Below, piece after piece: positions 336 through 4,790 of a stretch of DNA of 42,018 bases. Every line of letters begins with the position of its first letter. The stretch's first letter is position 1. A model generated the notes under the pieces. That model had not been told where the DNA came from and searched no databases. It saw nothing but the letters and a program-made list of their open reading frames with translations. This DNA comes from Deltaproteobacteria bacterium (lineage in GTDB: Bacteria > Desulfobacterota > Desulfomonilia > UBA1062), in NCBI GenBank assembly GCA_017992605.1, contig JAGOOG010000018.1:1-42018 (forward strand), read 5' to 3'. The translations under genes were made by a program, and so were the position numbers.

Positions 336-1292
336 TCACCCCTTGAGCACCCTCTCCATGAAAAACGCCTTGACCTTGCGCATGCGCCTCTCGGGCATGA
401 GCCCGTGCATGTCGCCCATGGGCATGATTTTTCCGAAGACGGTATGGGTCAACGAGGCTTCCGGGTCGTCGGTGTCGAGGATGAGGGCATGGAGCGTCTC
501 GGGGTTACACCCGGGATTCGCAGCAGTGGTCTTGCCTATGCGGGTCCGAAAGAACCCGGACATGTAGGGCGCCTCGTGGATATGCCCGTGCAAACTCAAA
601 AGCGGCTGCCTGTCCTCGAGAAACGACCTGATAGCCCGTGAGCCTATGGGTCTGCCGTTGTGCAGCGTGTCGAGCCCCGTGTCGTACGGCGGGCAGTGGA
701 ACACGCAGATGGCCCGGCCCGGGGCATCGAACCGGACGCCGGAAAGATCTTCCTCCATGCTGGCAGAGTTCTGGGCATACTCGCCCCCGGGGCTTTCGAG
801 AAGCCTGTCCGTGCCGCTGACGATGGCGAACCTGCTCGGCACGTAGGGATCGGCTGTCCTGTCGCGTCGTGCATAGTCCTTGACCCAGAAGGTGGAGTCC
901 GTCACGCAGGCATAGCCGAGGAAGTCGTGTCCGTTCAGGGATACCGTGCGCGCATGGATGTTCATGGCCCCGGGGAGTGCCTCCTCGAACCTCTTTACTG
1001 CGGGGATCCAGTCGTGGTTTCCCGGGATGTACAGGAGCCTGACACCTGGACGGGCCGAGAGGAAGTCGCGCAACGTCGGGGCAAGGTAGCTCTCGACGAA
1101 GCGGAGCTGGCCCTTCAAGTCGTTCTGAAAATCGGCACGGCCGTTTATGAGCGTGACGGGGTTGGGAATGATGGTAGGAAAGAGGTCGCCTCCGAGGATG
1201 ACGAGCCGGGCGGCGCTGCGGGAAGCCAGTTCCATCAAATCCCCGTAGAGGTTGACTCTTCCGTGCAGGTCGGATGCATAGAGTGTTTTCAT
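336..1292 (-). CDS. Metallophosphoesterase (calcineurin-like)
   Basis: A 318-residue protein with the ordered metal-binding blocks of calcineurin-like phosphoesterases: SDLHGR at residues 7-12 (the D-x-H block), GGDLFP near 34, IPGNHDW in the first third, FHCPP near 200 and HGHIHE near 240. These residues coordinate a two-metal centre that hydrolyses phosphate mono- or diesters; the substrate cannot be told from sequence. There is no signal peptide or membrane segment, so it should be cytoplasmic. The ATG at 1292 is the first residue of the metal-binding strand (MKTLYASDLHG), which supports this start. An AGGAGG lies about 14 bases upstream, rather far for a ribosome site. It is transcribed alone, divergently from the CoA-transferase fusion. 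Confidence 0.88.
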   Translation of the reverse strand: MKTLYASDLHGRVNLYGDLMELASRSAARLVILGGDLFPTIIPNPVTLINGRADFQNDLKGQLRFVESYLAPTLRDFLSARPGVRLLYIPGNHDWIPAVKRFEEALPGAMNIHARTVSLNGHDFLGYACVTDSTFWVKDYARRDRTADPYVPSRFAIVSGTDRLLESPGGEYAQNSASMEEDLSGVRFDAPGRAICVFHCPPYDTGLDTLHNGRPIGSRAIRSFLEDRQPLLSLHGHIHEAPYMSGFFRTRIGKTTAANPGCNPETLHALILDTDDPEASLTHTVFGKIMPMGDMHGLMPERRMRKVKAFFMERVLKG

Positions 1293-1440
1293 GAATGTCG
1301 TCTTGGCCTCCTGGACTCGGTAACGGCACTGACCATGATATATGGCCGCCCCGGTCAGTCAAGGACTTTCGGGAAGGAGCGGATCGAGGGCTCGTTCCCC
1401 CGTGACTTGCGGGGTAATAAATTACAGCAAGGATGACGAT

Positions 1441-1539
1441 ATGGTCTCCATATTGATCGTGTGTCACTCGCAAGGGGGGAACAAGGCTCAGATGGCGCTT
1501 GCGGTGGCCGAAGGCGTGCATGCATGGAGGACTGCCTGA
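1441..1539 (+). pseudogene. Flavodoxin/WrbA-like N-terminal remnant (32 codons)
   Basis: A short frame starts at an ATG with AAGGA about 8 bases upstream. It encodes MVSILIVCHSQGGNKAQMAL followed by AVAEGVHA, then runs into WRTA and a TGA. The first 28 residues resemble the opening strand, phosphate-binding loop and first helix of flavodoxin-fold proteins such as WrbA (pattern ILIVYYSxxGNTxxMAxxVAEGV). Nothing else of a flavodoxin follows in any frame, because the CoA-transferase gene starts inside it at 1524. The simplest reading is the 5' stub of a flavodoxin gene truncated by a deletion or rearrangement. The surviving start may now act as a leader that couples translation to the next gene. 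A chance match over 28 residues cannot be excluded. Confidence 0.5.
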
Positions 1540-3464
1540 CCAAGAAGGTATCGGCCGAGATGATCCAGGAGATCATCCACCCAGGGTCGAGCCTGTTCGT
1601 TGAATCCGGGTGTGCGGAGCCCCAGCATCTCGTCCGGACCCTCATCCTCGGCAACCTGCACCTCAGCGACGTCCAGGTGTTCACCACCATCCCGCTGCGC
1701 ACCTATGCCGACTTCGGCGGCGAGGCGGGGGCCCGGTTCCGCATACACTCGTTCTTCGTGTCGCCAGGGCTGTCCGGACCCTTTTCCTCCGGCAAGACCG
1801 ACCACATCCCCCTCTCCTCGGACATGCTCGAGAGGATGATCAGGGACGGGGCCATCCGGATCAATACGGCCCTCATCCAGCTCAGCCCACCCGATGGACA
1901 TGGATTCATGAGCCTCGGGGTGACCGTTGATGTCATGCGGGCAGTCATCGAGAAGGCCGATGTGGTGATCGCACAGGTCAACGCTGAGATGCCGTTTTCC
2001 GGCGGAGACAGCCTCGTGCACCTCTCAGAGGTGGACTACATCATCGAGCACAGCGAGCCGCTGGTGGAGTATGGTACCGAAGAGCTCGACTACGAAACGA
2101 GGCGTATCGGTGAGCACGTCGCCCGTCTCGTCGACGACGGCTCCACCATCCAGATCGGGTTCGGCAGGATACCCGATGCGGCACTGAGGGCCATGAGCGG
2201 GAAAAGGAATCTTTCCGTTCATTCGGAGATCATAACCGATACGGTCATGGACCTCATCCGTGGAGGGGAGATCCCGGACGGGAACACGGTCACGACATCA
2301 CTGTGCATCGGGACCGAGAGACTCTTCAGGTTCATGGACGGCAATACGGGAATCACCATGGCCTCACTCGCCAGCGTGGGCGACCCCCAGACCATTCTCT
2401 CAAAGGAACCCTTCGTGGCCATCAACGGTGCCGTGGAGATCGACCTCACGGGGCAGTCCTGCGTCTCCCTGGGGGAACGGGGGGGGCACCTCGGAACTCT
2501 GGGCCAGCCCCACTTCAACCGCATGACCCAGCTCACGAGAGGGGGCAAGGCCATCATCGCCCTGCGTTCCACCTCGCGCGACGGGAGCATCTCCCGCATC
2601 GTACCGCGTTTCACCGAGTCGCGGATGGGCATCATCACCACCCAGACGGACATCGGTCACGTGGTGACAGAGTACGGGAGCGTGAACCTCTTCGGAAAAT
2701 CCATCAGGGAACGCGCCCTGGAACTCATCACCATTGCCCACCCGAAGTACCGTTCGTGGCTTCTCGAAGAGGCGAAGAGGATGAACTACCTCTTCCAGGA
2801 CCAGGTCATGCCTCCCGGGGACGCACTGTATCCCGCCCAATACGAACACCTGCAGGTCTTCTCGGGGAAGGAAGTCCTTCTGCGGCCCGTCAGGATCACG
2901 GACGAGCGGGCGGTGCAGAACCTCTTCTATTCACTGAGCAGCGACGAAAAGTTCCACCGCTTCCATGTCCACCTCACCTCTCTCCATCACAAGCAGGCCC
3001 AGCAGATGGTGAACTGCGACTACCACGATTCCCTCGCACTGGTTGCGGAAGTCGAGGAGGGGCAGACGAAGAGCCTCGTCGCCATAGCTCATATCTGCCG
3101 GGAAAGGGAAATTGAAAACCGGGTGATCTGCGAATTCGCCGTCATGGTTCATCCTGCATGGCAGAACATGGGACTCGGCACGTACCTGCTCCGGACCATG
3201 ACCGAGATTGCCAGGGAGCACGGGTTTACGATCTTCCGTGCCTACGTGTGGGAGGAAAACGTCAGGATGCTCAGGGTGTTCGAGAAAATGAGTCTGCACA
3301 TGACGGCACTGGTGGATTACAGTGTCATCAGGATGGACTACGAGCTCACCCCCCCTGCCGGGGACATGGCCGAGCGGCTTCCCGGCGGGGTCTGTGTCGA
3401 CAGGACGGGAGACGTGCCTGCAGCTGGCCACCCCCTGATGCTCCATGCAGGAAAGACACGGTGA
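1524..3464 (+). CDS. Acetyl-CoA hydrolase/CoA-transferase fused to a C-terminal GNAT acetyltransferase
   Basis: A 646-residue two-domain protein. Residues 1 to ~445 form a class I CoA-transferase of the acetyl-CoA hydrolase/4-hydroxybutyrate CoA-transferase type. Evidence is the opening KKVSAEMIQEII block, SGCAEPQHLVRTL, the HSEIITDTVMDLI block whose Glu (about residue 235) sits where the family carries its catalytic glutamate, and the C-terminal VVTEYGSVNLFGKS block. From about residue 452 a GNAT domain begins (LLRPVRITDERAV) and carries the acetyl-CoA-binding motif WQNMGLGTYLL near 550. This GNAT resembles the acetyltransferase part of Pat/PatZ-type protein acetylases. The ATG at 1524 is chosen because family N-termini begin just before this block; an in-frame GTG lies at 1461. 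The domain pairing suggests acyl-CoA turnover with protein acetylation, which is inference. The last ~30 residues are low-complexity. Confidence 0.9.
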   Translation: MEDCLTKKVSAEMIQEIIHPGSSLFVESGCAEPQHLVRTLILGNLHLSDVQVFTTIPLRTYADFGGEAGARFRIHSFFVSPGLSGPFSSGKTDHIPLSSDMLERMIRDGAIRINTALIQLSPPDGHGFMSLGVTVDVMRAVIEKADVVIAQVNAEMPFSGGDSLVHLSEVDYIIEHSEPLVEYGTEELDYETRRIGEHVARLVDDGSTIQIGFGRIPDAALRAMSGKRNLSVHSEIITDTVMDLIRGGEIPDGNTVTTSLCIGTERLFRFMDGNTGITMASLASVGDPQTILSKEPFVAINGAVEIDLTGQSCVSLGERGGHLGTLGQPHFNRMTQLTRGGKAIIALRSTSRDGSISRIVPRFTESRMGIITTQTDIGHVVTEYGSVNLFGKSIRERALELITIAHPKYRSWLLEEAKRMNYLFQDQVMPPGDALYPAQYEHLQVFSGKEVLLRPVRITDERAVQNLFYSLSSDEKFHRFHVHLTSLHHKQAQQMVNCDYHDSLALVAEVEEGQTKSLVAIAHICREREIENRVICEFAVMVHPAWQNMGLGTYLLRTMTEIAREHGFTIFRAYVWEENVRMLRVFEKMSLHMTALVDYSVIRMDYELTPPAGDMAERLPGGVCVDRTGDVPAAGHPLMLHAGKTR

Positions 3465-3509: not shown

Positions 3510-4790
3510 ATGCACGGCAATGACATTCTGGATGACTTCGTCAAGGACCTGACCGGCCCCTGCCGCGTGACCAGGGGCGAACAGGTCCTGGCCTGCGTCT
3601 CCGGCGGTATCGATTCCATGGTGCTCCTCGACCTTCTGTGCAGGGCAGCGCCACTCCTCGACCTGGGCCTCGGGGTCATCCACGTCGATCATGGATTGCG
3701 GGGCACGTCCTCCGGACAGGACGCACGCTTCGTCGAGGAACGGTGCAGACGGCTCTCGCTGCCCTTCCATCTCGCGCGACTCGGCATGGGCCCGCATGCC
3801 TCGAATCTCGAAGAGAGGGCGAGGGAGAAGAGGTACCACGCGATCCTTGACTGTTTGAGCCGAAACGGGTATGGGTGCGCCGCAACCGGGCACACCCTCG
3901 ATGACCAGGCCGAGACCGTGATATACCGCATCGTGCGAGGGACGGGCCTCAGGGGTCTCTCGGGCATGGCGCACCGCAGGGACGACGGCGTCATAAGGCC
4001 CCTGCTGGGAATCGCCAGGGCCCGGATCGAGGAATATGCGGCACGCATCGACCTGGAGCACGTCCAGGACACATCCAACGACGACACGCACCATGCACGG
4101 AACCTGATACGTCTTTCCATCATGCCCCTCATGAGGCGCATCAATCAGCGTGCGGCGCAAGCGGTGTCGTCACTGGCGGCCATCGCATCGCAGGAAGGGG
4201 ACCTCATGGACGCACTGTCCGCCGAACTCGCTCGGAAAGCCCTGGCCTTCGACTGGGAGATGATCAGGGCTTTCCGTACCGAAACCCTCCGGGAGGCCCA
4301 TGAGTCGGTGCTGCGGCGGTTTCTCATCGACACCGTAACCTCCATGACCGGAGAACCGAGGGGAATCGATGCCGCACAGGTCGAGGCGGCGCTGCGGGTC
4401 GTCGGCGGCCATGTCTCGGCCCATACCGTGCGGCGGAAAGTCAGGATCTGCCGTGACAACGACCTGCTGGTGTTTCACCTCCTGTCAGGAGGGACGTGCT
4501 ACAGGCACCCCATCGATCGTGGGGGAGATTTTCACATACCCGAGATCAACAAGTCCGTGCGCATCATCCCTGCCGGGGAGTGCCCCGGGCGCCCCGTCCT
4601 GCGCCCATGGCGTCCCGGCGACAGGATGCGCGGCAGAAGGGTGGCCGACATGCTCTCCGCCATGAGGGTCCCCCGCAGTCTTCGCCCTTTCTGGCCCGTG
4701 CTGGAGTCGGACTGCGTCTTGGCGGTTGCCTCTCCCGGAGAGAACCAAGCAGCCCCTCACTTGATCGTGGACCTGGGTCATGGCGAATAG
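3510..4790 (+). CDS. tilS: tRNA(Ile)-lysidine synthase
   Basis: A 426-residue protein that uses ATP to join lysine to C34 of the CAU anticodon of a minor tRNA-Ile, changing both its codon reading and its charging. The N-terminal PP-loop SGGIDS is at residues 31-36. It is followed by HVDHGLRG and GHTLDDQAETV, both diagnostic of TilS (MesJ). The C-terminal RPWRPGDRM block and the following 'kVPRSLRPFWPVL' type sequence match the TilS C-terminal domain, so the protein is full length. The start lacks a clear ribosome site. Its last 11 bases overlap the mfd start, implying coupled translation. Confidence 0.95.
   Translation: MHGNDILDDFVKDLTGPCRVTRGEQVLACVSGGIDSMVLLDLLCRAAPLLDLGLGVIHVDHGLRGTSSGQDARFVEERCRRLSLPFHLARLGMGPHASNLEERAREKRYHAILDCLSRNGYGCAATGHTLDDQAETVIYRIVRGTGLRGLSGMAHRRDDGVIRPLLGIARARIEEYAARIDLEHVQDTSNDDTHHARNLIRLSIMPLMRRINQRAAQAVSSLAAIASQEGDLMDALSAELARKALAFDWEMIRAFRTETLREAHESVLRRFLIDTVTSMTGEPRGIDAAQVEAALRVVGGHVSAHTVRRKVRICRDNDLLVFHLLSGGTCYRHPIDRGGDFHIPEINKSVRIIPAGECPGRPVLRPWRPGDRMRGRRVADMLSAMRVPRSLRPFWPVLESDCVLAVASPGENQAAPHLIVDLGHGE

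Follow-up and report, generated by a model that had tools for sequence, protein, structure and literature searches.

A short frame at the start of a CoA-transferase gene

A 32-codon reading frame resembling the beginning of a flavodoxin overlaps the start of a CoA-transferase gene. The question raised by this locus is whether the frame (hereafter, the stub) is the remnant of a lost gene, a functional leader, an artefact of the draft sequence, or a chance resemblance. We analyzed the window, that is, the whole stretch of 42,018 nucleotides, which is an entire contig of a draft genome (2.71 Mb, 63 contigs, 98.5% complete). The draft may have been assembled from a metagenome, as its named relatives were. 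The comparison set consisted of 24 genomes of the family, including the window's own.

The stub (1441..1539, plus strand) was recognized from the listing of open reading frames, by homology and by a profile search. It runs from ATG 1441 to TGA 1537–1539 and is translated as MVSILIVCHSQGGNKAQMALAVAEGVHAWRTA, followed by the stop. An AAGGA ribosome site is located 7 nt upstream of ATG 1441. ATG 1524 of the CoA-transferase gene falls within the stub but in another frame, and the stub terminates 13 nt inside that gene, as the preliminary description had stated. A first-start listing opens the frame at an earlier ATG (1342; 65 aa), and homology begins only at 1441.

The gene overlapped by the stub (1524..3464, plus strand, present start ATG 1524) encodes an acetyl-CoA hydrolase/transferase fused to a GNAT acetyltransferase, as judged by Pfam matches (PF13336, 1.1e-42; PF02550, 2.7e-22; PF00583, 2e-11), and its orthologues show 49–61% identity. 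Nine matches to this gene, including itself, were found in its own genome, so that it has paralogues; among the seven matches listed, four cover the CoA-transferase as well as the GNAT part, and three are confined to the CoA-transferase. The divergent neighbour (336..1292, minus strand) is presumably a metallophosphatase-like gene, and the downstream neighbour (3510..4790, plus strand), which is syntenic in part of the relatives, is presumably TilS-like. Positions 1–261 hold the C-terminal end of a gene that runs off the contig start and that we take to be HD-domain-like; a relative of it lies near the metallophosphatase gene in genome G003 as well.

Homology of the stub to a flavodoxin gene

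The first 26–28 residues of the stub correspond to the start of a flavodoxin-fold protein of 151–156 aa in relatives. The first 26 residues of the protein from G007, one of the two best-matching relatives, were compared with each of the window's 83,876 six-frame positions; the score was 88 at 1441 and 32 at the next best position (mean −25, sd 10). The stub matched an intact flavodoxin in 10 of the 23 other family genomes, with E-values of 1.5e-6 to 8e-4 per genome. A profile of these ten intact proteins was searched against the stub and the 895 six-frame window segments that are 20 residues or longer. It detected the stub at E = 2.2e-8 and its longer stop-to-stop segment at 1.2e-7, and the next, unrelated segment appeared at 0.33.

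The flavodoxin-derived part comprises codons 1–26 (1441..1518, plus strand) and includes the first strand, the HSQGG phosphate loop and the first helix. In the eight intact genes linked to a CoA-transferase gene, 12–18 of these 26 residues and 43–54 of the 78 bases are shared with the stub. The base differences fall mostly at third codon positions (for example, 7, 4 and 13 at the first, second and third positions against G007). HSQGG is invariant in the ten intact proteins, and the stub keeps the P-loop residues.

Positions 1429..1440 (plus strand) are the leader retained from the lost gene; they contain the AAGGA ribosome site and, directed towards the ATG, TGACGAT. The sequence TGACGATATG spans the start codon in seven of the ten intact flavodoxin genes and in the window (1434–1443). 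It is identical between genera whose remaining upstream sequence differs. We also considered TGACGATATG as a genome-wide signal and rejected this, as the 10-mer occurs five times in the whole genome and the reversed pattern three times.

General profile libraries are too blunt for 32 residues. NCBIfam gave NF002999 (NAD(P)H:quinone oxidoreductase; E = 0.032, positions 1–28 on 1–28), the sole match in Pfam was Mbeg1-like (E = 0.078), and a PHROGs search with the 32-residue stub yielded no match. The Pfam match would point to an alpha/beta-hydrolase nucleophile elbow; this reading was ruled out because the homology already includes residue 1 and because synteny ties the locus to a flavodoxin. 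The preliminary description had proposed a profile search of the 32 residues, with a missing flavodoxin match counting against it. Judged by the general libraries, at 0.032–0.078, the description would have been refuted; judged by the profile of orthologues, it is not.

Related genomes with an intact flavodoxin gene at this position

A CoA-transferase orthologue (E ≤ 1e-150) was found in 13 of the 24 family genomes. In eight of these (G007, G008, G011, G014, G016, G017, G019 and G020), an intact protein of 151–156 aa, with an N-terminus such as MTTILVVYHSQGGNNRKMARAVAEGV, is encoded directly upstream on the same strand. The other five carriers are the window's genome, with the stub, and G002, G009, G010 and G015, with neither stub nor flavodoxin. 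In total, an intact flavodoxin gene is present in 10 of the 24 genomes. G021 (L098) and G023 (L099) keep the flavodoxin without an orthologous CoA-transferase, and G009, G010 and G015 show the reverse. Thus, the two genes are not strictly tied, as each occurs without the other.

The order of metallophosphatase (minus), flavodoxin (plus) and CoA-transferase (plus) genes in G007, G014, G017, G019 and G020 is that of the window, and the metallophosphatase orthologue is likewise divergent just upstream of the intact flavodoxin in G021. In G011 and G016, a gene that we assume to be acyltransferase-like lies between the metallophosphatase and flavodoxin genes, and no metallophosphatase gene was found within the stretch fetched around the locus of G008. 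TilS follows the CoA-transferase gene in G002, G004, G008, G009, G015 and G016, as in the window, and comes after the metallophosphatase gene in G003. The stretches fetched from G007, G011, G014, G017, G019 and G020 did not contain it; among these, the contigs of G011 and G014 are short.

In a wider contig search, from which records of the window's genome itself or of a very close one may be missing, the best 80 of 385 relatives comprised 11 at 48–61% identity and 69 at 35–39%. The CoA-transferase orthologue of G007 (L044) is broken by an in-frame TGA at codon 187 of the match, where relatives read on, and its flavodoxin gene is intact; the break is either a pseudogene lesion or a draft error.

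These comparisons bear out the preliminary description in so far as a complete gene does stand upstream of the CoA-transferase gene in relatives (8 of 13 carriers), and the "fossil" that it suspected has its whole counterpart at the same place. The complete gene encodes a short flavodoxin and not the wrbA that was expected. The further suggestion of a gene replacement was dismissed because the CoA-transferase gene already followed the flavodoxin gene before the deletion, which moved it nearer.

Nature of the lost protein

Two of the ten intact proteins, those of G007 and G008, were scanned against family models. They exceeded the cut-off of PF03358 (24 bits) with 47.7 and 36.5 bits, respectively, and the G007 protein was also above the Flavodoxin_5 and Flavodoxin_1 cut-offs. 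In the predicted structure of the G007 protein, the best of five models reached a pLDDT of 90.8 (the other four, 57.5–60.1). The closest solved chain was 2ark, a flavodoxin of Aquifex aeolicus (profile 1.7e-18; fold E 1.5e-12, TM 0.89), ahead of WrbA. The intact orthologue thus has a flavodoxin fold and P-loop, and it may bind FMN.

The preliminary description had named the stub a WrbA-type start. The N-terminal strand, loop and helix do align with the WrbA models at positions 1–28, and in the fold search WrbA structures follow behind 2ark. However, the intact proteins have 151–156 aa against 197–200 model positions, and the two scanned proteins scored far below both equivalog cut-offs: 48.6 (G007) and 45.9 bits (G008) for NF002999 (cut-off 141), and 38.9 and 39.9 bits for TIGR01755 (cut-off 132.5). 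The flavodoxin start therefore stands and WrbA itself does not. The short flavodoxin family (TIGR01753, flav_short; 2ark) shares the fold and about the length with the intact orthologues, but the G007 and G008 proteins (41.4 and 30.5 bits) are also below its cut-off of 123, and the window retains only 26 codons. The lost protein is a short flavodoxin-fold protein, WrbA-like at the N-terminus and outside WrbA by curated models. Its subfamily is widespread: in a sample of 297 genomes from the phylum, 42 contained it at E ≤ 1e-30, including six that belong to the window's family.

Deletion and junction

Measured from the last base of codon 26, the PG[SA] motif of the CoA-transferase lies 468–498 nt away in the eight relatives and 62 nt away in the window; therefore, 406–436 nt are missing. 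In the MAFFT alignment, flavodoxin homology ends and CoA-transferase homology begins at the junction GTGCATGCA (1517..1525, plus strand), whose exact point is ambiguous. The break coincides with the end of the first helix, as the predicted model of the G007 protein has a strand at residues 2–8, a loop, and a helix at 14–27. A search of the 98.5% complete draft genome for the rest of the flavodoxin gene (E ≤ 10) recovered paralogues at 32–35% and no further piece.

Downstream of the junction, the codons WRTA (1525..1536, plus strand) are probably ancestral codons of the CoA-transferase gene according to DNA alignments, and now lie in the fossil frame, out of frame with the present gene. They resemble the relatives' CoA-transferase starts MWRT, MWRD and MWKT, so the tail of the stub looks like the old start read in the fossil frame. 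In DNA alignments with six CoA-transferase starts, G020, G009 and G008 fit with small indels, and G019, G010 and G015 were ambiguous. The present N-terminus, MEDCLTKK, may consist partly of old codons in a shifted frame.

History of the locus in the family

In a tree of the CoA-transferase with 17 rows, the window groups with G002 and G004 (100/100), and seven flavodoxin carriers from genera g4 and g8 form the sister group of this clade (94/92). One long outgroup branch in this tree was flagged by the program, and G004 covers 38% of the columns. The carrier G008 branches deeper, and the non-carriers G009/G015 and G010 branch between it and the rest of the tree. Because these non-carriers branch in between, more than one loss or gain of the flavodoxin is needed.

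None of the five genomes of the window's genus has an intact flavodoxin gene. In the sister species G003 of the same genus (L095, G003:C68 9283–9401), 117 nt separate the start of the metallophosphatase gene from TilS. In an alignment, about 90 columns of this locus match the end of the CoA-transferase gene and the start of TilS in the window, and G003 is therefore without both the flavodoxin and the CoA-transferase genes. In G004 the contig ends within the CoA-transferase copy, and in G001 no such locus is present next to TilS.

We sought further fossils by tblastn in stretches of about 0.1–2.5 kb, located upstream of the CoA-transferase gene (G002, G009, G010 and G015), before TilS (G001), and in the metallophosphatase–TilS gap (G003); the best E-value was 0.34. 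A deletion shared with G002 is not borne out by the upstream alignment, which scored 26 where mononucleotide shuffles averaged 23.6 and 130 of the 500 did equally well. The sequence TGACGATA in G002 is only suggestive as a trace of the same deletion.

Origin of the stub and alternative explanations

Judged from sequence comparison, the stub is almost certainly a genuine but ordinary gene fossil, the first sixth of a small flavodoxin gene. Two features of such a fossil are present: significant homology to a gene that stands intact in this position in relatives, and a disabling lesion with the remainder absent. We assign a probability of about 0.84 to the whole explanation, that is, a lineage-specific fossil formed by deletion, incidentally translated and without function. 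The ancestor would have carried the small flavodoxin gene with the CoA-transferase/GNAT gene behind it, probably in one transcription unit. We infer that a single internal deletion of 406–436 bases, relative to the relatives, took flavodoxin codons 27 to stop and the spacer up to the CoA-transferase start, and spared 26 codons together with their ribosome site and the region upstream. From there, the fossil frame would enter the apparent old CoA-transferase start (WRTA) and stop, and one or two more small indels probably separate it from the present CoA-transferase frame at ATG 1524. The CoA-transferase gene is most likely transcribed from the promoter of the lost gene and starts at its own ATG, with the stub most likely translated incidentally in the mRNA leader as a non-functional remnant. 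Points against the fossil explanation are that it concerns a single draft genome, in which a misassembly is conceivable, that the junction and small indels are ambiguous, that the family history calls for more than one loss or gain, and that TilS synteny is not seen in all relatives. The nonsynonymous share of changed codons was 0.40–0.64 between the single stub copy and the ten intact genes, and 0.18–0.67 among the intact pairs listed (those with G008, G011, G016 or G019). Retention of the P-loop is unlike a very old neutral fossil; it fits a recent deletion or some constraint.

Alternatively, the same fossil would be a functional leader kept by selection. Ribosomes would load at the stub site, and translation of the 32 codons would end 13 nt within the CoA-transferase gene; reinitiation at ATG 1524 would then couple or tune CoA-transferase translation. 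A stop just inside the next gene is a layout where termination and reinitiation can occur; this geometry, the AAGGA site, and the intact frame and P-loop residues agree with the proposal. However, the stub was found in one of 24 family genomes, only the window's, so the conservation expected of a selected leader is not seen. The congener G002 keeps the CoA-transferase gene without the stub, and G003 also lacks the stub. The anti-SD energies are ordinary (stub, −5.2; CoA-transferase, −3.8; 3,000 random positions, median −3.1 and 25th percentile −5.4), and the leader RNA fold has z = −0.26, with 76 of 200 shuffles as good. We thus regard a selected leader as unlikely. It is similarly doubtful that the deletion was co-opted, so that the 32 codons and their start site, once the front of the lost operon partner, now couple or tune CoA-transferase/GNAT synthesis as a regulatory leader.

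An error in the draft is still less probable. The real genome would then hold an intact flavodoxin gene from which the contig lost about 400 bases, and the locus does lie 1.4 kb from a contig end in a draft of 63 contigs. Against this, no other flavodoxin piece was found in the genome, the four congeners searched (86–99% complete) are also without an intact gene, and the shifted frame at the junction is unlike a simple collapse. A random short frame resembling a flavodoxin start would accord with the values of 0.03–0.08 from general libraries, but it is hardly credible, as the stub shares locus, strand and order with the intact gene and has the profile match described above; synteny refutes it. 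The preliminary description would, on its own terms, have been refuted by relatives with the same short frame unconserved in residues, and none of the 23 other family genomes carries the frame.

Implications

Gene remnants (pseudogenes) left by internal deletion are known in bacterial genomes. The present fossil differs in nothing of kind from these, having an intact orthologue at the same locus, a disabling deletion and collinear flanks, with the particular feature that it overlaps the start of the next gene. Among the titles and abstract openings listed in literature searches, none describes this locus. A fossil of 26 codons can be established by synteny and an orthologue profile where general profile libraries fail, and the case calls for caution in gene calling at this CoA-transferase start. 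If the stub were a regulatory leader after all, it would be a clean case of one born by deletion. For the family, the locus shows a two-gene unit eroding within one bacterial family, with both genes kept, the flavodoxin gene alone lost, or both lost.
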